Assembly: GCF_000208925.1 (NCBI RefSeq)
Contig: NW_001914876.1
Span: 33,566 to 97,565 of the forward strand
Direction of reading: 5' to 3'
Length of the DNA: 64,000 nt
DNA from: Entamoeba histolytica HM-1:IMSS
Lineage: Eukaryota > Evosea > Mastigamoebida > Endamoebidae
The notes under the pieces: generated by a model
Database searches by the model: none
What the model was told of the DNA's origin: nothing
Seen by the model: only the letters and a program-made list of their open reading frames with translations
Translations under genes and position numbers: made by a program
Part shown: piece after piece, positions 703 through 51,016 of the stretch
Layout of the letters: every line of letters begins with the position of its first letter
How positions within the stretch are numbered: the first letter of the stretch is position 1

Positions 703-2936
703 TGTTTCTATTTCTTTTCTTTAATAGTTCTTTTGGTATAATAATCAATCTTATTTTTTTCTTATCTCTTTCTTTTCTTCTTCATTAAACTTCTCCTTCT
801 TTTTTTAATTGAATGTTCAATTTGTGCTATATATAACAAAATACAAATGTCTTTAGAATTATTTTTGTTTCAGTGTTTAAATAGAGTCTAACAAAGAAAA
901 TCTTTTAATCTACAACGAGGATAAGTGTGTAATGGCTCTTAGTATTTTTCTTTCATATTTTAAAACATTAATGTCAATTTGTTCAACAACATAAAAGTCA
1001 AGTTAAAAAATATAGTTACAGCTTTAAAAATAAAACATTGTGTTGGGGGAAGACGTAACATTTTAAAAAAATACTTGAGAGTCTAAATAGAGTTTGTTTT
1101 CTTTTTATTTAGTGGTACATTATTTTTATAAACTCTAGGAGATGGTATTTTCTGCAAAATTACTTTATGTGAAGAAAGTTCTGTTTATACTTCCAACAAT
1201 TAATTAACCAGTTTTCTTTAATAAAGTATCACACTCTTTTTATATAATCTATAATTATTATTATCACTCCTGATAATATGTCTATATTTTTAAGTTAATT
1301 TGGTGAATGACTGTAAAGTTCCATATGAATAAAAACAAACTAGTTTGATATGTTTTCTCATATGTTTATATCATATTAAAGAAGTTAATAATGTATAACA
1401 ATTTTTGTTATCACTTGAGTGATTACATATTATTTATATTATAACTACTGAAATAATACAAAACTAACGTATTGAATAAGCGGTTCAATAAATTCTAATG
1501 GAATTATTTTTGGTTTCAAGTAAATTCTTTTTGAAGTATAAAATAAGATAAGCTAAACCAAATTTAAGAAGTTCAGAATGGTAATAAAGTTGATCTTTTC
1601 TGCTATATTTCTCTATCTATAATAAAATATTTTCAATTTTGATTATTTCCATTTAATATTTTTAGATGTATTTATTATATTTTCATTTATTGTTTTCACA
1701 TATATTATTCAAGGATAATATAACTTGTTAATATACATTTACAGTATCACTGAAAATATTATTTTTTAAACAATGTAGCCTAGTCAGAATAAAATTAATT
1801 ATTCTAAATAATAAAATAACATGAAATTTGTATTGTTATCATAATTTCTAAAGTCTCCAAAAAATAAAATTATAATAAGTTATATTTCTATTCAATCTAT
1901 TTGATTAGAATATAACTCATGACTTTTCTAAATCTCTTTGTATCAACTGTATTATATGTACGTTTGATATTTCTTCTTCATCTTTACTAAATATTATCAT
2001 CTATTTAACTTATAACATAATTCACTTGTTCTTGATAACAATAGTAATTGTATTTTTTACAAAAATCTACAACACTATATCAATTTTATTCAATTTGATA
2101 GAATAAAATTGTTATGTTGATTATTCAATGAAGTGTAAAAATAAAATAAGGATTTTAACATATGACAAAAACTATCTTTTGATGAACAAATGAATATAGC
2201 CTTTATTTATTTAATATAAGCTAATGTTATTTAAAAAACACTAACATTGATGGTGATCTAAAAATCGTTATTTTTTATAAATGCTAAATGTTCTTAAAAC
2301 AATACTAACAACTCCAACCATTCATTTTATTAAATACTGTAGAAATGCTTAAAAGAATAAAAGATATTAATAAAGAAATGAATTATTTCATAACAAATAA
2401 TTAATAATTCTGAAAACAAATACAATAGATTGCAATAGATTTTGATAGACTGTACTATTAAACAATCTATTTTTAATTAAACTTAATTTTTAACCATTGT
2501 TATTCATTTACTTAATAATATAAATTAAACACTTATACTATAGTATCAATAGATATAAATTATACTTTTTGAAAGTTTATGTTTATTAATTGTTGAGTAT
2601 ATCTCAATAAAAAACCGTCTCTATTTCACCAATAAATAAAAAATACTTCATCTTAACTTAAATAAAAAATTCTAGTAAAGTATTTTTCATTCTTCTTTGT
2701 TAATATTATGACAATGTATGTTCAAAGAAAGTTATTTCTGATGTATTTTATCTATAAAACGCAAAAACCCCCACCCTGTTATTTACTTGTTTTTCTGTTT
2801 CAAGTCTTTTTCTTGTACTACTAAGAAAAAGAAATAGAATAACAAAAATTTATGTTTTTAAATCAGCTAAAAATAAAAAGAAAAGCAAAAAGAGTTTTTA
2901 ATAAAATGAACTTTAAAATAGGAAGTAAAAAAAGAA
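703..2936. other. 2.2 kb gene-free AT-rich region between divergent genes
   Basis: No reading frame with coding character was found on either strand. The sequence is highly AT-rich with many short homopolymers. Two local inverted repeats stand out: arms at 1879-1890 and 1906-1916 (one bulge), and an exact 11-bp pair at 2081-2091 and 2101-2111 with a 9-nt loop. It must hold the promoters of the leftward Beclin gene and the rightward small membrane-protein gene. It is far longer than most gaps in this window. No tRNA, SINE or LINE signature was recognised. Confidence 0.6.
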
Positions 2937-3302
2937 ATGAATGGAATAATAATAGTTGTTTTATTGATTGGTGTAAGTTATGGACTTCCAAGACTTGATG
3001 ATGCATGTTGTTTCCAAAGTAGTGGTGATAGATGTGAGTGTAATAAAGTTTATTCATGTCATATTCCACCAACATATTTTGGTTCTGAACAATATCTTCC
3101 ACCATGTCCAAATAGTGAATGTAATGACAATTGTGTATTTAGTGGTTTGTTAATTAATTAAGAAATGATATTAATATACAAATGTTAACGTTTGATAGAT
3201 TGGTTAATATCAATTATTTGTACTGTTGGGGTATTTTTTATTGATTTATTATTTATTGGAACAACGTGGTTGATATGCAGAAGACGATGTGAAGATAGTT
3301 AA
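2937..3302 (+). CDS. small cysteine-rich type I membrane protein (2 exons)
   Basis: Read unspliced, the frame stops after 74 codons. A GTTTGT donor at 3145 and TAG acceptor ending at 3198 remove a 54-nt intron in phase (exons 2937-3144 and 3199-3302), giving 103 residues. The product has a hydrophobic signal peptide (first ~16 residues), a short ectodomain with about nine cysteines including a CC pair and a CxC, then a membrane helix of about 22 residues encoded entirely by exon 2, and a basic/Cys tail ending near RRRCEDS. Topology suggests a surface or secretory-pathway protein. I recognise no family. That splicing restores a signal-ectodomain-TM-tail architecture strongly supports the intron. 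Confidence 0.72.
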
Positions 3303-3384
3303 GTCTATTAAAATTGAGAATTTGTTTAATGTTATTTTTTCGCTTAGTTTTAAGAAAGTATAAAAAGAGATAATCATCAATCAA

Positions 3385-3792
3385 TTACAATATTTCTTCA
3401 GAAACACTACTTTCCATAAGAACAACATCATTATCATTATCAACTTCAAACTCAGGTTCTTTCTTTGGTTGTTCTTCTTTACTTTCATCTGAATCACTGT
3501 ACGCAGTAATATCTCTATTCCATCCAGCATTTTCTAATAAATCAACACCAGTTGGTACATTAACAGGAATATGATATGGATAAGGAAGAGATGAAGGCAT
3601 TTTTGGATAAGGAGGTTGTTGTGCAACCGTTCCACTAATGAATTTTGCATATTTAATAACTTCTTCAATGGTATAAACGTTATTTTGTTTAACCCTTTCA
3701 TTCATGTCAACAATCTTTTGCACTTCATCTCTCAATTTTTCAATTTTCTCAATTCTGTCTAACACATCTAAACCAGTTGCAATCATATCCAT
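3385..3792 (-). CDS. Mediator subunit 4 (MED4)-like protein
   Basis: The protein has 135 residues. A short N-terminal coiled coil (about 5-40) is followed by a segment with the order found in MED4: an EEVIKYAKFISGT helix, then a Pro-rich PYPKMPSSLPYPY stretch. In MED4 this is the conserved 'yAhriS ... PyP' signature. The C-terminus is acidic and disordered. If correct it is a middle-module subunit of the Mediator complex that couples activators to RNA polymerase II. It is much shorter than animal MED4 (about 270 residues), as is common for fast-evolving protist Mediator subunits. The assignment rests on one short motif, so an unrelated coiled-coil protein remains possible. Confidence 0.5.
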   Translation of the reverse strand: MDMIATGLDVLDRIEKIEKLRDEVQKIVDMNERVKQNNVYTIEEVIKYAKFISGTVAQQPPYPKMPSSLPYPYHIPVNVPTGVDLLENAGWNRDITAYSDSDESKEEQPKKEPEFEVDNDNDVVLMESSVSEEIL

Positions 3793-4103
3793 TGAATATA
3801 ATACTATTTTTTTTTGTTTTTATATTTTTTGATTTTAAGAAGTAAAAAACAATAATGAAAAGAATGTTTTTATCTGTTTTTTTTTTTTACTTCAGTATAA
3901 ACAGGTATTTTAAATGATTTTGTTATTTACCTTCATGAAGGAATTGTTAAGGAGTATTTCATTTATTTGTCTTAATGATAGACAAGAGAGAGAGAATAAT
4001 GAAATGAAAGAAGAGAGAAATGAATTTGTAATGAGAATGAAAAATTGAACTTTTCTGGGTTGTCCAAAAATACAAGGAACTGAATAACCCATTTCGACCT
4101 GAA
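3793..4103. other. divergent intergenic region, MED4-like / ROCO
   Basis: A 311-bp spacer between divergent start codons. It contains a T-run (about 3880-3890) and a purine-rich stretch (about 3986-4020). A short open frame on the minus strand crosses into the next gene but has no coding character. No element could be assigned beyond presumed promoters. Confidence 0.45.
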
Positions 4104-44072: not shown

Positions 44073-44822
44073 TCAGATACGTTGTAATAACCATTCATCC
44101 ATTCCAGTAACACGTAGTCCTGTGACTCCTCCAAGTTTATTAAATCTATAATTTCTAAATTTTTCACTAGAAAATATAAATGGAGATAATACACTAAAAA
44201 TTTCATCAAAATGTTTTCCTTGTGTAATTTCATTAACAAGATCTTCAATACATTCAATAGTATCAACTTTACCTGCAAAAGCTTCTTTAACAATAGAATT
44301 ACTTGTAATAGCAATAGGTTCTTGATCACCAATTTGAATTCTACCTCGTTTAATAATTAATTCTCTAATAGTTTCTGAATGAATAGGACCATAAGTAATA
44401 TATAAATTAACTATTTTTAATTTTGACATATTTTCTGGTGTTCCAACAATAATTCTAGTTTCCATTGGTTGTCTTAATCCAAATCCATTTAATATTTCTT
44501 TAATTTCTTTAATTGCTGTTATTGGAGTTCTAAGTAACATAACAGCAACTGGTTCAGTAAATCCTCGTGGTGGTTGTTTAGCCATTACTTTAGAAAGAAA
44601 CTGACTACGTGCTGTTTCATTCATTTGCTTCTTTTTAACAGCAACAATACGTTCAAGACTTAATTTAATGTGAATTTTTTTATTTTTCTTTTGAATTTTT
44701 TTCATTTGGTCTTTCATTTGTTTTCTTTTCTTTCTTTCTGACATGATTTGGTCAATAGTACTTCTTTTAATAATTACTTTTGTATCAGCTTTCTTCGGAA
44801 TGTGGCTACTTGTTTCAGTCAT
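44073..44822 (-). CDS. ribosomal L7-like ribosome-biogenesis factor (RLP7/RPL7L1)
   Basis: 249 residues from the ATG at 44822; the TTG codon before it is not a credible start. A very basic N-terminal helix (about 25-60, SERKKRKQMKDQMKK ...) precedes a uL30-type fold (about 90-175, from LLRTPITAIKEI through YGPIHSETIRELIIKRGRI). The C-terminus is L7-like but diverges from uL30 proper (no Arg-rich FKKKR stretch; ends GMDEWLLQRI). This fits RLP7/RPL7L1, a nucleolar factor acting in 27S/ITS2 pre-rRNA processing, better than the structural protein. A telo-box-like motif almost abuts the start codon. Confidence 0.82.
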   Translation of the reverse strand: MTETSSHIPKKADTKVIIKRSTIDQIMSERKKRKQMKDQMKKIQKKNKKIHIKLSLERIVAVKKKQMNETARSQFLSKVMAKQPPRGFTEPVAVMLLRTPITAIKEIKEILNGFGLRQPMETRIIVGTPENMSKLKIVNLYITYGPIHSETIRELIIKRGRIQIGDQEPIAITSNSIVKEAFAGKVDTIECIEDLVNEITQGKHFDEIFSVLSPFIFSSEKFRNYRFNKLGGVTGLRVTGMDEWLLQRI

Positions 44823-44823
44823 C

Positions 44824-44831
44824 AAGGGTTT
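44824..44831 (-). promoter_or_regulatory. telo-box-like motif upstream of RLP7
   Basis: The plus strand reads AAGGGTTT (AAACCCTT on the gene strand), 2 bp before the start codon. It is so close that it may be in the 5' UTR. Confidence 0.35.
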
Positions 44832-44943: not shown

Positions 44944-46188
44944 TTAACAATATGTCTTAAGTGTTTGCATAACATTAGGATATTTTACTACTACTGAATG
45001 TGGTTTCCAATGAAGTAATTCTTTTTTCACTAAAACCACTTTCTTTGAACACTTTTCACGTAATGCCTCCATTTTAATGTGATTAATTGAAATAATTTGT
45101 GATCCTCGATATGGAGAAATACAATTTAAAGTATCTAAAGCACTTACACAATCCTCTTTTGTTATTCCTGTTTTTAAAGTAAGATCTTCAATGGAGGGAA
45201 TTTCAGTTGAATTTAATAATTCTTCTGCAATTACTCCTGACCAATAACTTTTGAAACTAACTAATCCTAAATCACTTAATGGTTTCTCAGGACTTCCTGG
45301 AATTCCTTCAATTTTACTTAATTCATAACTCATTGAAATAAGCATTTTACCATATCCTTTTCGTTGATGATGTGGTAATACCATTAAACAACTTAAATTA
45401 TACCCATCAGGACTAGCTTTTTCTTTTGAAAAATAACCAACAATATGATAATCATCACTTTTCCACTGTTCATTATAATTAAATTCACAAAGAACATAGA
45501 AATAGAATGGTTCTACATCATAATATAATGTTTTATGATCTAAAAACATTTTACTTAATAAACAAAGTGATTGACAAAACATTTTTGCTTCTGCTCCATC
45601 AACTTCAAAAAATGCTAAATGTCTTTCATCATCTTTATAAATTAATAATCCTGGTGGAAAATGATATGGACAATGTTCTCTATGTTTAATATAAGTATTT
45701 GCTTTAGACATATATTTAAGACAATGTTCACAAATATATAATCTTTCTGCATGTCCATATTCTCCAGGATATGGTGAAAAATACCAAACATTTAAATCAT
45801 AATCTCCAATAGTAACATGTTGAATATTTTTTGTTCTTTGAAATATTTCATTTTCTTGTGGTGTTGTTTTATCAATAACTTCACTATCTTTTTCTAACAT
45901 AGAAACATTTGATTGACGTAATGCTCTTGTCATTTTACGTTGACTAACTCCATCTTCTTTTGTTGTAGGTCTAATAATATTTTCTTTTGATGAATATCGT
46001 ATAATATTATTTGCTGCTGTCCATTCATCTAATCGTTTATTATATTCTGTATATCTAACATAATATTCTGTATTTCCATTATGTTCTCTTGTTTCAAGAA
46101 TTCTTGCTTCTCTATATGATCCTTCAGGATCTTCATGTTTATGACACAATACCTTTTCATTTATCTTAAATCTCAAGATATTACTCAT
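44944..46188 (-). CDS. MYST-family histone acetyltransferase (Esa1/Tip60-like)
   Basis: 414 residues. An N-terminal chromo-barrel (about 8-62: KVLCHKHEDPEGSYREARI ... RLDEWTA) is followed by the MYST domain. It has a C2HC zinc finger (CEHC ... H ... C), the catalytic-site cysteine in NLSCLMVLP and the acetyl-CoA loop HHQRKGYGKML, with the general-base Glu in SPEKPLSDLG. This is the Esa1/Tip60/MOF layout, so acetylation of histone H4 and H2A is expected, in a NuA4-like complex. Length is close to yeast Esa1 (445). The start is the first ATG. Confidence 0.94.
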   Translation of the reverse strand: MSNILRFKINEKVLCHKHEDPEGSYREARILETREHNGNTEYYVRYTEYNKRLDEWTAANNIIRYSSKENIIRPTTKEDGVSQRKMTRALRQSNVSMLEKDSEVIDKTTPQENEIFQRTKNIQHVTIGDYDLNVWYFSPYPGEYGHAERLYICEHCLKYMSKANTYIKHREHCPYHFPPGLLIYKDDERHLAFFEVDGAEAKMFCQSLCLLSKMFLDHKTLYYDVEPFYFYVLCEFNYNEQWKSDDYHIVGYFSKEKASPDGYNLSCLMVLPHHQRKGYGKMLISMSYELSKIEGIPGSPEKPLSDLGLVSFKSYWSGVIAEELLNSTEIPSIEDLTLKTGITKEDCVSALDTLNCISPYRGSQIISINHIKMEALREKCSKKVVLVKKELLHWKPHSVVVKYPNVMQTLKTYC

Positions 46189-46401: not shown

Positions 46402-48441
46402 TTAACAATTAGAAATACCAGCAACTGATTGACATTGCTTTGTAAAATAATCATCACATATCCCACAGAAACTTGATTTTGATGAACGACAATAACCACA
46501 TGAATTAATACTACATAATCCTGGATCAGTATTTTTTGCACATGTTTTAAATGTTAATGTAGGATAATCAAGAAGGACAATTCCATTACATTGAAGACTC
46601 ACTTTAACTACTGAATCAACAATGTCACCATGTGGAATTCCCATAAGAAAAGGATGAGATAAACAAAATAATTTCTGTGAGGTATTAAATGATAATCCAT
46701 TTGGTAAATAAGGTTCACTAATTATTTTTGGTGAAAAACAATTCCATGATATTTGAGGCATAGTTACATGCCTTACTTCTACATTATCTGAAAGATGAAC
46801 TACATATTGAGAATCATCTCCAAAATTTTTTCCTTCATAAAATGGTTGATATACAGTACAAAGAATAATAACTGCAATACAAATAGCTTGAAAGATTACT
46901 AAAACAATAAATGAATATTGATATGGAAGTCCAAATCTATATGATGCTTTATTAATAAAATAACATATTACTAATGATATTATTACACCAATAATATAAC
47001 AACTAACAAGAGTTATTACATGATATCCAATGATAATAGACAGCATTAACATTGACATTAAAAGTGAAAAAACAATATACCACGTAATATATTGGGATAA
47101 TCTCCATTTAAAATTGATATTATTTTTTATTGGAAAGAATGCCTTTTTAGTTTTTAAGAAATTCATTACTTCTGTTTTATTAATTAGTACAAAAATCCAT
47201 AATATAATAGATAATAATATTGTTATTCCCATTAAAAAGTACATTGATGGAAAGATAATTGCAATAATTATACAAGTAATGGTACTAAACAAACAACTAA
47301 ATATTAAAAATGATATTGGTCCAAATATATGCATCATACGTATTTTCCATTGAATGAATTTAGATTTTTCTTCTCGTTGGGGATTATTACAATTCATTTC
47401 AAATAATACTTTTTCTAACTGTGTAATTGCACAATCAACTTTCTTTGATACACCATTTATTTCTTCTATTTCTCTTAATCCTTGTGCATTATTATGTATT
47501 TCTTTTAATGCCTCAACAAGAAGAGGAATAATTCCTAAATAATCTACTGTCAATTTTCCTGTATCATCTTCTTTCACTAAGTCTGGATAAATCTTTTGTA
47601 CATCCTGTGCAACAAATCCATATTTTTTATTATCACTATCATTTTTATAAGAATAAGACACTCCAACTAAAGATAAAATTCCATTAAGAGAATTGTGTAT
47701 TTCTTCAATATCAGTTTTACTTCGTGCATCTGACCTTACTAAAAATCCATTTTCTGCAAATATTTCTCCAAGTACATGCAATTGTCTGAGATTTTCATTA
47801 ATCTTTTCAATCTTAATAAAATCTTCTGGTGATATTTGGTAATCTCCTGTTGATGGAATTTTAATCATTTGTTGTATTTCATTTGTATTTATGTTTTGTT
47901 TTATTGGTGTTGGTTGCATTTCAATTCCAATAGGTGTGTCAATAGCAAGAGGTGCTCCAGAATATGATATTGGAACACTTTCTATTGAACGACTTGGTGT
48001 AGTTTCATTATTAATAACACTATTTGATGATGAATTAGTATGAATTTCATTGTCAAATGACTTTGAATTAGGGTCAAAGGCAAAAGGATATTGTAAATTG
48101 TTATCACCATCATTATTATTTATTATTATTTTTTTTTTAATTTTTGTTGGTGGATATTTATCTATCAATTTAATCATATAATCCTCACACAACCTTTTAA
48201 TATCATCTTTTTGAGGAGATAACTTAAACGTTGTTAATAATAAATTATTTGGATTCTTTCCTGGTTTACTAAGTTCTGTTCGTAAATGTGCATCCCAAAC
48301 ATGTGCATAACAATTATATCTTGTTTTAGGTGCTTCTTCACATTTAGGAAATGTACATTTCCAATTTTTCTTTCTTTGATTTTGTGTTCTTGGAATTTGT
48401 TCACTTTCAACAAGAACAAGAGGAGGTGATGATTGGTTCAT
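46402..48441 (-). CDS. membrane-tethered zinc-finger protein with ICA (peptidase S74) self-cleavage domain, MYRF-like
   Basis: 679 residues. A C2H2-like finger lies near the N-terminus (C29, C34, H47, H52), then a disordered Ser/Thr/Asn-rich linker. An intramolecular-chaperone autoprocessing (ICA, peptidase S74) domain spans about 228-325, with the motif SDARSK: Ser237 and Lys242 are spaced as the catalytic dyad of MYRF and phage tail-spike proteins. A following segment contains GFVAQDVQKIYPDLV and VDYLGIIPLLVEAL, typical of the fold. About five membrane helices follow (373-398, 400-420, 449-472, 474-496, 508-531), then a Cys-rich C-terminus of about 148 residues that should lie outside. By analogy, self-cleavage before Ser237 would free the N-terminal finger to enter the nucleus. 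DNA binding is inferred. Confidence 0.8.
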   Translation of the reverse strand: MNQSSPPLVLVESEQIPRTQNQRKKNWKCTFPKCEEAPKTRYNCYAHVWDAHLRTELSKPGKNPNNLLLTTFKLSPQKDDIKRLCEDYMIKLIDKYPPTKIKKKIIINNNDGDNNLQYPFAFDPNSKSFDNEIHTNSSSNSVINNETTPSRSIESVPISYSGAPLAIDTPIGIEMQPTPIKQNINTNEIQQMIKIPSTGDYQISPEDFIKIEKINENLRQLHVLGEIFAENGFLVRSDARSKTDIEEIHNSLNGILSLVGVSYSYKNDSDNKKYGFVAQDVQKIYPDLVKEDDTGKLTVDYLGIIPLLVEALKEIHNNAQGLREIEEINGVSKKVDCAITQLEKVLFEMNCNNPQREEKSKFIQWKIRMMHIFGPISFLIFSCLFSTITCIIIAIIFPSMYFLMGITILLSIILWIFVLINKTEVMNFLKTKKAFFPIKNNINFKWRLSQYITWYIVFSLLMSMLMLSIIIGYHVITLVSCYIIGVIISLVICYFINKASYRFGLPYQYSFIVLVIFQAICIAVIILCTVYQPFYEGKNFGDDSQYVVHLSDNVEVRHVTMPQISWNCFSPKIISEPYLPNGLSFNTSQKLFCLSHPFLMGIPHGDIVDSVVKVSLQCNGIVLLDYPTLTFKTCAKNTDPGLCSINSCGYCRSSKSSFCGICDDYFTKQCQSVAGISNC

Positions 48442-48979
48442 TTCAATAAAATCTGTTCAATTTTCAAGTTTTATGTTTTAATATTTATTTGTTTTATATA
48501 ACGTAAATATTCATTAAAATTAAAAAAGAGAATAAAAATAATAATAATCTACGCTTTTATTTATTTATAAAAAATAATAGACAAAAGAAAGTTGGTATTG
48601 TTTTCAATAGTAAATAGTTTTATAGATATTAACTCATTAATTGAAGTTTATTATAATATATAAAGAATAAAAGAAGAAGTAATATAATAATTCTAAACTA
48701 AATGAAGGTTTACAGAAATAGTAATGAAAAGAATATTTAAGATAGAAGAGGTAAAGAGTTTTATAGTTATTAATTTTATCAGATAGAGTTATTGTTCTTC
48801 ATAATGAGATTTATTATATTAATTTATAAAATAAAAACCAAAAAGAGTCATAAAGATTTTGAGAAGAAAATAAGGAATAAAAAGAAGAAGTAAAATAGTT
48901 TAATAAAGAAGATATGAATAATGATATAAATTAATAACAAAAATAGAATCTAATGTAAAAATAAAATGATAAAAATCAA
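48442..48979. other. intergenic region upstream of the MYRF-like gene
   Basis: 538 bp, the promoter side of the MYRF-like gene and the 3' side of KRR1. It contains an imperfect direct repetition: a GTTTTATAG-TATTAA unit near 48618 and again near 48760, each followed by a distal AAGAAGAAGTAA stretch (about 48674 and 48882). No gene was seen. Confidence 0.4.
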
Positions 48980-49747
48980 TCAATCATCTCGTTCAGGAGG
49001 AAAAGGAGAATAATTTTTCTTCTTTTCTATAATTTTCTTTTTTAATTCTTTTTTCTTTTTCTTAATTTCTTTTAATTTTTCAGGTTTAGTATTTTGTTTC
49101 TTTGAGTATTGAGGAATATAACGAGACCAATCTTCGTTTTTCATATTTTCGTTTTTCATTAATTCTTTTTTAATCATTAATGCCTTAATATTATAAATTG
49201 GATGAATATTGTCCATACAATCTTCTACTATCTTTCTAACCATTTTAATACCAGAAGGTGAACCAATTACACTTACTGTTTTACCTTGAATTAAAATAAA
49301 ACATCCAGTTAATATTTCAATTGCTTTTTGGGTAGCTCCATTAGGACCTACTAAACGTTGTCTTCTTTTAACAAATCGTTCTTTATTTTTAATCATATTA
49401 CCAATTTTTATAATATCACACCAATATTGGTCTTGAAGAACTTTTATTGCTTCTTGTGCTGGAACTCCTCTTGATAATAACTTCAACATATCACGTGCTT
49501 TAATAATAATGAATGGATCCCATGTTTTACGAGTTGTTTTAACTGTCATTATACCTTTAACTAAATCAAGTTCTCCTTTTAAACAAACTTCATCTAAAGC
49601 TTTATTTATGACATACCACATCCCTTTTAAATATGATTCTCGATATTTTGGAAATAAAATTGAAAAACTACTCTCTTCTAATAGTCCATTAGGATTGTCC
49701 TCTGGTTTAAAATCATTAACTTTCCATAATGGATCATTTGCACTCAT
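48980..49747 (-). CDS. KRR1: KRR1 small-subunit processome component
   Basis: 255 residues from the ATG at 49747; the preceding TTG is not a start. The order is WKVNDF near the N-terminus, FPKYRESYLKGMWYVINKAL, then a KH domain containing KNKERFVKRRQRLVGPNGATQKAIEIL with the modified GxxG. A SRYIPQYSKK motif and Lys-rich tail follow. These are hallmark KRR1 segments. KRR1 acts in the nucleolus in 18S rRNA maturation. The protein is shorter than yeast KRR1 (316) mainly because the tail is short. A telo-box-like AAAACCCTAA lies upstream, and it is divergent from the next gene. Confidence 0.93.
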   Translation of the reverse strand: MSANDPLWKVNDFKPEDNPNGLLEESSFSILFPKYRESYLKGMWYVINKALDEVCLKGELDLVKGIMTVKTTRKTWDPFIIIKARDMLKLLSRGVPAQEAIKVLQDQYWCDIIKIGNMIKNKERFVKRRQRLVGPNGATQKAIEILTGCFILIQGKTVSVIGSPSGIKMVRKIVEDCMDNIHPIYNIKALMIKKELMKNENMKNEDWSRYIPQYSKKQNTKPEKLKEIKKKKKELKKKIIEKKKNYSPFPPERDD

Positions 49748-49790
49748 CAACCAAGAACTGAATTTTTAAATTCTTTTCATTTTTTTTTTT

Positions 49791-49800: not shown

Positions 49801-49873
49801 TAATTAAATTTGTGTTTTTCTTTTTTAATAATTTTTAAGAAAAATTATTGAAGTTTTTCATAAACGTAATTTG

Positions 49874-51016
49874 ATGATGAAAGCAGTTACTCAACTTATT
49901 TGGGGAAATGTAGAAGAAGAAATTCCTAATGAAATTTATAGAAATATTCAAGTTATTCCAAAAGAGGCACAAATATATTTTCCAGTTGTGCTTGATGAAG
50001 TAAGATTGAGATATTATAAAGAGACAACAACAAAACTCTGTTCAAGTAAGATTCAAATAGAAGATGATATTTTATTTATTATTCCTGATCATAAACTTAA
50101 ATCAAATGAGTTACATTGTATTGAATCGTTTATTGAACATAGTGTTCCATATGTTGAAAGTATTCAATTGGTTAATATAAATAATGCAGATAATGCATTT
50201 TATAATTATTTACTCCCTCTTTATCTTGAAAACAAATTTCATGCTCAATTTGTTATTGATCAACAAAATAAAAGAATTATTTTTCAACAAGAAATAGAAT
50301 GTACTAAAGAAGACATTATAAAATATATTAATTCTTTAAATGTAAAACCATTAAAACTTAATTATACATTTGATAATGAACAATTTCATTCATTTGCAAT
50401 AAATGACTTTATTTCATTTGAGAATTTTAAAACACAACATTCATTTGAAATACCAATACAACCTTCTTTAACATTTATATTGAGAAAGTACAATTCTTTC
50501 ATTAAAAGAGAAATGAAAAGGTATTGTGTTGTAGCTCAAAATCCCGAAATGATGAAAGGAAATTATCAATTAGGAGATAATCATATCACTTGTTATACTT
50601 TTAACTCTTTAGTAAAAGACATGTTCCTTAATGTACTTAATAGATATTGTGAACAAGTACAAAATTCAACACTTTCTTATTCATTTGATTATAGGTATAT
50701 TAAGAAATTATGTAAATCATTTAACATACAATATCAAAATGAAATAGTTGCAATTAGGTTTATTAATTCAAGTAATTTTAAATCTAATTGTGTTTCAATG
50801 ATGTATATTGAACAGAGTCAATTTGAAAAATATTTTTTAATTGTTAAAAAAATGGCTGAAGAACATAAGACATATCCTTTAGACTCTATTCAATTAACAA
50901 ATGAACAACAAAATTATTTTATTCAGAAAGGGGTAATTTTTGATAAAGAGTCACATTTAATTCATTCATTTTCAAGACAAACTTCTACTGAGCTAAGTGC
51001 ATATGAAAATAAATAA
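49874..51016 (+). CDS. protein of unknown function
   Basis: 380 residues from the ATG at 49874 (a TTG precedes it). Mixed alpha/beta composition with several hydrophobic strands (KIQIEDDILFIIPDH, FPVVLDEVRLRYY, EIVAIRFINSS). No signal peptide, membrane helix or known motif. A short acidic region is near the start (NVEEEIPNEIY). It is divergent from KRR1 across 126 bp and tail-to-tail with Exo70 across 40 bp. I cannot assign a family. Confidence 0.6.
   Translation: MMKAVTQLIWGNVEEEIPNEIYRNIQVIPKEAQIYFPVVLDEVRLRYYKETTTKLCSSKIQIEDDILFIIPDHKLKSNELHCIESFIEHSVPYVESIQLVNINNADNAFYNYLLPLYLENKFHAQFVIDQQNKRIIFQQEIECTKEDIIKYINSLNVKPLKLNYTFDNEQFHSFAINDFISFENFKTQHSFEIPIQPSLTFILRKYNSFIKREMKRYCVVAQNPEMMKGNYQLGDNHITCYTFNSLVKDMFLNVLNRYCEQVQNSTLSYSFDYRYIKKLCKSFNIQYQNEIVAIRFINSSNFKSNCVSMMYIEQSQFEKYFLIVKKMAEEHKTYPLDSIQLTNEQQNYFIQKGVIFDKESHLIHSFSRQTSTELSAYENK

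Follow-up and report, generated by a model that had tools for sequence, protein, structure and literature searches.

We analysed a 64,000-nucleotide stretch of contig NW_001914876.1 from Entamoeba histolytica HM-1:IMSS (the window), focusing on a reverse-strand gene whose product joins a C2H2-type zinc finger to a Peptidase_S74 (ICA) domain and a multi-pass membrane part. A sequence-only reading had placed an open reading frame (ORF) here, in what it took to be an amoeba, and proposed a MYRF-like, self-cleaving, membrane-tethered protein. The ORF is uninterrupted, with 679 amino acids (aa) in a single frame, the host is indeed Entamoeba, and the protein is 100% identical to KM1_058440 of E. 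histolytica HM-3:IMSS. Its layout is given below, with the basis of each assignment in brackets; pLDDT is the predicted local distance difference test.

46402..48441 (-): coding sequence, 679 aa, one frame
48280..48375 (-): C2H2-type finger, residues 23-54, with C29, C34, H47 and H52 (ligand invariance, profile match, model)
48151..48273 (-): conserved finger extension, residues 57-97 (K73, C85, Y88), with a helix at 78-86 and a strand at 89-94 (alignment and model)
47833..48150 (-): disordered linker, residues 98-203 (pLDDT, low paralog identity)
47734..47832 (-): stalk ahead of the predicted cut, residues 204-236 (paralog identity, alignment)
47731..47733 (-): Ser237, predicted nucleophile; predicted cut Arg236/Ser237 (invariant)
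47716..47718 (-): Lys242, predicted general base (invariant)
47410..47733 (-): ICA/Peptidase_S74 domain and long C-terminal helix, residues 237-344
47332..47541 (-): helices from the ICA domain towards the membrane, residues 301-370 (models)
47254..47316 (-): membrane helix 1, residues 376-396 (hydropathy scan and model, as for the next four)
47182..47241 (-): membrane helix 2, residues 401-420
47035..47100 (-): membrane helix 3, residues 448-469
46933..47022 (-): membrane helix 4, residues 474-503
46828..46920 (-): membrane helix 5, residues 508-538
46537..46821 (-): predicted lumenal or extracellular beta-sandwich, cadherin-like or Ig-like, residues 541-635
46405..46536 (-): Cys-rich tail, residues 636-679

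The zinc finger, the ICA domain and the membrane part

The sequence-only reading named four zinc ligands, C29, C34, H47 and H52; none of them varies among the 15 finger-bearing genes of the genome, each of which follows the C2H2 pattern C-x2-5-C-x12-13-H-x3-5-H; the spacing is C-x4-C-x12-H-x4-H in 14 and C-x4-C-x13-H-x4-H in the paralog L013. Profile searches had been proposed for both domains. That for S74 succeeded, whereas Pfam zf-C2H2 matched neither the whole protein nor residues 1-97, which carry no Pfam match of any kind, though for a profile built from the finger regions of 13 of the 15 genes, SWI5 (1ncs, E 5.9e-6) and YY1 (1ubd, E 0.01) are the sole PDB matches at E<=1. The zf-C2H2 search of the genome returned at least four places, all on contigs without an S74 gene. 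In the usual helix numbering, T40 and N43 occupy positions -1 and +3; both are fixed in 15/15 genes, with Tyr (13) or Phe (2) at +2 and Ser (11) or Ala (4) at +6, and the paralogs should therefore bind similar DNA sites. Residue C44 (48310-48312), within the finger helix, occurs in 15/15 genes and C85 (48187-48189), after the finger, in all 13 aligned; the two may contribute to metal binding or to the core. The finger region is modelled with pLDDT block means of 86-94, against 28-35 for the linker (residues 101-200 of the model).

Peptidase_S74, the only Pfam domain at E<=1, covers residues 237-290 (E 1.5e-16, 60.8 bits, cut-off 22). Ser237 and Lys242, described earlier as intact, are invariant in all 21 aligned homologs and in 16/16 S74 genes of the genome. 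An ICA fold, on which the sequence-only reading had staked its proposal, is predicted, and the ICA model superposes on the MYRF structure 7dc3, with Ser237 opposite MYRF 587, provided that no gap enters the alignment from its first residue on. In bacterial, phage and MYRF rows, the segment that precedes the cut aligns with the stalk, whose confidence is low in one model and 74-85 in another.

Five membrane helices are predicted, close to the earlier estimate of about five, and here model and hydropathy scan agree; the loop ahead of membrane helix 3 holds 7 Lys/Arg in 33 residues. The Cys-rich C-terminus stands for the window protein and L001, each with 11 Cys after residue 530, but is not a family-wide trait, since the other 13 finger-bearing genes have just 2-10.

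The next gene (44944-46188, -) encodes a MYST-type histone acetyltransferase (MOZ_SAS E 3.4e-72, with zf-MYST and Tudor-knot), and the neighbour at 48980-49750 (-) encodes a KRR1 small-subunit processome component with two KH domains (E 2e-45 and 1.3e-30). ORFs 49871-51016 (+) and 44073-44825 (-) gave no Pfam match at E<=0.001.

Paralogs, relatives and origin of the ICA domain

From a single gene, the sequence-only reading had no means of recognising a set of 16 paralogs. A PF13884 search of the genome (17 Mb, 392 contigs) returned 16 places, all above the cut-off, and R-S-D-x3-K is present in every one of the 16 loci when read individually. The same finger opens 15 of these genes; a finger query also gave 16 places, comprising the same 15 genes and one contig end, that of C280 described below. 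Because both searches return the same 15 genes, the finger and the S74 domain go together in this genome almost without exception. Conservation is uneven along the 15 finger-bearing proteins (mean pairwise identity, 105 pairs): the finger (64%), stalk (54%) and ICA domain (51%) are held, and the post-finger (27%), membrane (23%), lumenal (22%), linker (17%) and coil (15%) parts vary.

In the remaining paralog, L012 (about 2300-3950; C333:31162 region), no finger was found; it has the dyad, the membrane part and two apparent GTTTGT...TAG introns, and might pair with the finger-bearing paralogs or block them. The ORF just upstream of it presumably encodes a ribosomal protein S26-like product. 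Contig C333 carries three S74 genes, at 31162, 43166 and 50525, on both strands within 20 kb, as a local cluster. At the end of contig C280, 649 bases (L017 2722-3370) are identical to window 47884-48532, the start of the window gene; this copy is preceded by a 726-aa ORF, which we take to be cullin-like and which is unlike the sequence upstream of the window gene. The repeat reflects either a genuine segmental duplication or a copy created at the contig end during assembly.

Named homologs with finger, ICA domain and membrane part occur in E. invadens (where EIN_380760 is the closest), E. dispar, E. nuttalli and E. marina, alongside unnamed metagenome proteins; since the whole layout recurs across the genus, the architecture is not due to chance. 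Two metagenome proteins, P0022 and P0023, have the ICA domain and membrane part but lack a recognisable finger, and our tree places them within the Entamoeba set; their source contigs span only 3,043 and 4,236 bases, so the 5' part is possibly missing. Another, P0019 (429 aa; very short linker, Ala/Arg/Pro-rich), groups with L001 (100/94), which suggests a GC-richer Entamoeba relative with the same architecture.

The Entamoeba ICA profile scored bacterial and phage S74 domains at up to 95.6 bits and eight vertebrate MYRFs at 26-33 bits. Among the best 80 of 324 loci, most of which are Bacteroidota by title, the bacterial ones are 30-49% identical, and the top-scoring belong to Flavobacteriales, Bdellovibrionales and Muribaculaceae. 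A tree of 78 rows and 112 columns, with vertebrate MYRF rows only and a bootstrap that had not settled, sets MYRF apart from Entamoeba, which forms one set with P0022/P0023 (99/98); however, a tree uniting Entamoeba with MYRF scored 3.76 log units better and was not rejected by an approximately unbiased test (p 0.573).

The proposed mechanism and its alternatives

With a probability of roughly 0.57, we propose that the window protein is a membrane-tethered transcription factor that frees itself by self-cutting, a mechanism modelled on passages of PMC3742443, PMC8326128, PMC3742440 and PMC3828593. The N-terminal part, comprising finger, linker, stalk and ICA domain, would face the cytosol, with the five helices anchoring the protein in the endoplasmic reticulum (ER) or surface membrane and the beta-sandwich on the opposite side. 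By analogy with MYRF and MrfA, the chains would form a trimer, the Ser-Lys pair would attack and cut between Arg236 and Ser237, and residues 1-236 would be released and enter the nucleus. The freed finger fragment would bind DNA, its release perhaps controlled by a surface or ER signal as the sequence-only reading suggested, and the ICA domain, helices and lumenal domain would remain at the membrane.

In the models, the helices between the ICA domain and membrane helix 1 could be the place where an outer signal acts. Because the paralogs have the finger in common while their membrane and outer parts diverge, different inputs likely converge on one class of DNA site; DNA-reading and cutting parts that are held, with a varied outside, form the sequence pattern expected for many inputs and one output. 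Faster drift of the outer parts could, however, by itself yield the same pattern. More tentatively, the genes may amount to about 15 one-protein pathways that together make up a receptor family, perhaps independent of MYRF and drawn from bacterial or phage S74, in which multi-pass sensors with an Ig/cadherin-like outer domain cut themselves on trimer formation and free trimers of single fingers of like specificity. Within such a family, mixed trimers and the finger-less L012 could combine or block inputs.

The strongest rival, possible though doubtful, is that each chain is cut soon after folding and trimerising in the ER, the membrane part being a mere scaffold, with control at nuclear import or synthesis and a remnant that may act alone. 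Dictyostelium MrfA is reported in PMC3828593 to behave in this way, with rapid, constitutive cleavage and control at nuclear translocation, and PMC3742440 and PMC12803276 describe mammalian MYRF cleavage as apparently constitutive for the most part, occurring even in a bacterially produced fragment. However, PMC12803276 also reports that C. elegans MYRF-1 cleavage is gated by the juxtamembrane region and PAN-1, and the membrane and lumenal parts vary among the paralogs beyond what a bare anchor would seem to require.

Less probable by some distance is a trimeric membrane receptor that frees no nuclear factor, the ICA domain serving as a trimerising fold and the finger binding protein, RNA or lipid at the membrane. 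The finger-less L012 fits this, as do five helices and an Ig/cadherin-like outer domain, which look more receptor-like than anchor-like; yet Ser and Lys, seemingly not needed for trimerising only, are retained in 16/16 paralogs, and the finger, with helix positions -1 and +3 fixed, resembles DNA-binding fingers. Lastly, the fragmented assembly and the copied gene start on C280 might suggest an artefact of gene prediction or assembly that joined a finger gene to an S74 gene of bacterial type, but this is refuted by the recurrence of the fusion in 15 genes of the genome and, among named proteins, in five species of Entamoeba.

If this receptor-family reading is correct, ICA-driven release would here serve transcription factors whose DNA-binding part is not of the Ndt80 type; on ICA-released transcription factors, passages of PMC3742443, PMC3742440 and PMC3828593 describe Ndt80-type MYRF and MrfA only. 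Joining the release module to a second kind of DNA-binding part would show that the module is portable and would make the requirements of the ICA domain separable from those of Ndt80 trimers, as a single finger should gain strength only when three are held together. Among candidate transcription factors of Entamoeba, the family would be one of the larger groups; Myb is the stated largest (PMC4053983), and canonical C2H2 searching gave at least four places. It would offer a named, testable route by which surroundings or ER state could reach genes, for example in encystation, with the divergent outer parts as a list of orphan sensors.

Comparison with known systems

Like the animal myelin factor MYRF and MrfA, the Entamoeba proteins run from an N-terminal, putatively DNA-binding part through linker, stalk, ICA domain and membrane segment to a C-terminal lumenal part, with the ICA Ser and Lys five residues apart. 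They differ in carrying one C2H2-type finger in place of an Ndt80-type domain, five predicted membrane helices in the window protein against one in MYRF (PMC3742443), Arg rather than Pro before the predicted cut, and a family of 16 paralogs. The replaced DNA-binding part, multi-pass membrane part and MYRF-type dyad anticipated by the sequence-only reading are supported. Arg precedes the cut in 16/16 genes of the genome and 21/21 aligned homologs; Pro there is not MYRF-specific, as 13 of 40 bacterial and viral rows carry it.

The MRF domain, as defined in PMC3828593, combines S74 with PF13887; the proteins that carry it have an Ndt80-like domain, a membrane segment and Pro before the cut. All 120 MYRF rows listed of 721 carry PF13887; it matched neither the window protein (E<=1) nor P0002, P0012 and P0018 (E<=10), and does not appear among the families listed for 17 members (25 of 28). 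Neither PF13888 nor Ndt80/PhoG (PF05224) matched the window protein at E<=1, and a PF05224 search of the genome found none, a result of little weight because no control genome gave a match either. A 2026 survey of membrane-bound regulators (PMC13294678) mentions proteins of four Amoebozoa species with an endosialidase-chaperone domain among its NDT80 proteins; Entamoeba is not named anywhere in its text. The lack of matches to PF05224, PF13887 and PF13888, the five predicted helices and Arg before the predicted cut set the window protein apart from MYRF.

With the SWI5 and YY1 fingers, the Entamoeba finger shares the C-x4-C ... H signature and, with SWI5, RYN at the helix start; unlike them, it stands alone, has W and D between its His residues and Cys44 in the helix, and escapes Pfam zf-C2H2. 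The ICA domains of phage and bacterial fibres and spikes (endoNF 3gw6, phi29 gp12 3gud, T5 fibre 4uw8, 6f45 and 8jov) have the same Peptidase_S74 domain, Ser/Lys dyad and long C-terminal helix. In those proteins the domain is found close to the C-terminus (7 of 8 scanned, P0022 aside), whereas in Entamoeba it sits mid-protein, between the finger and the membrane part.
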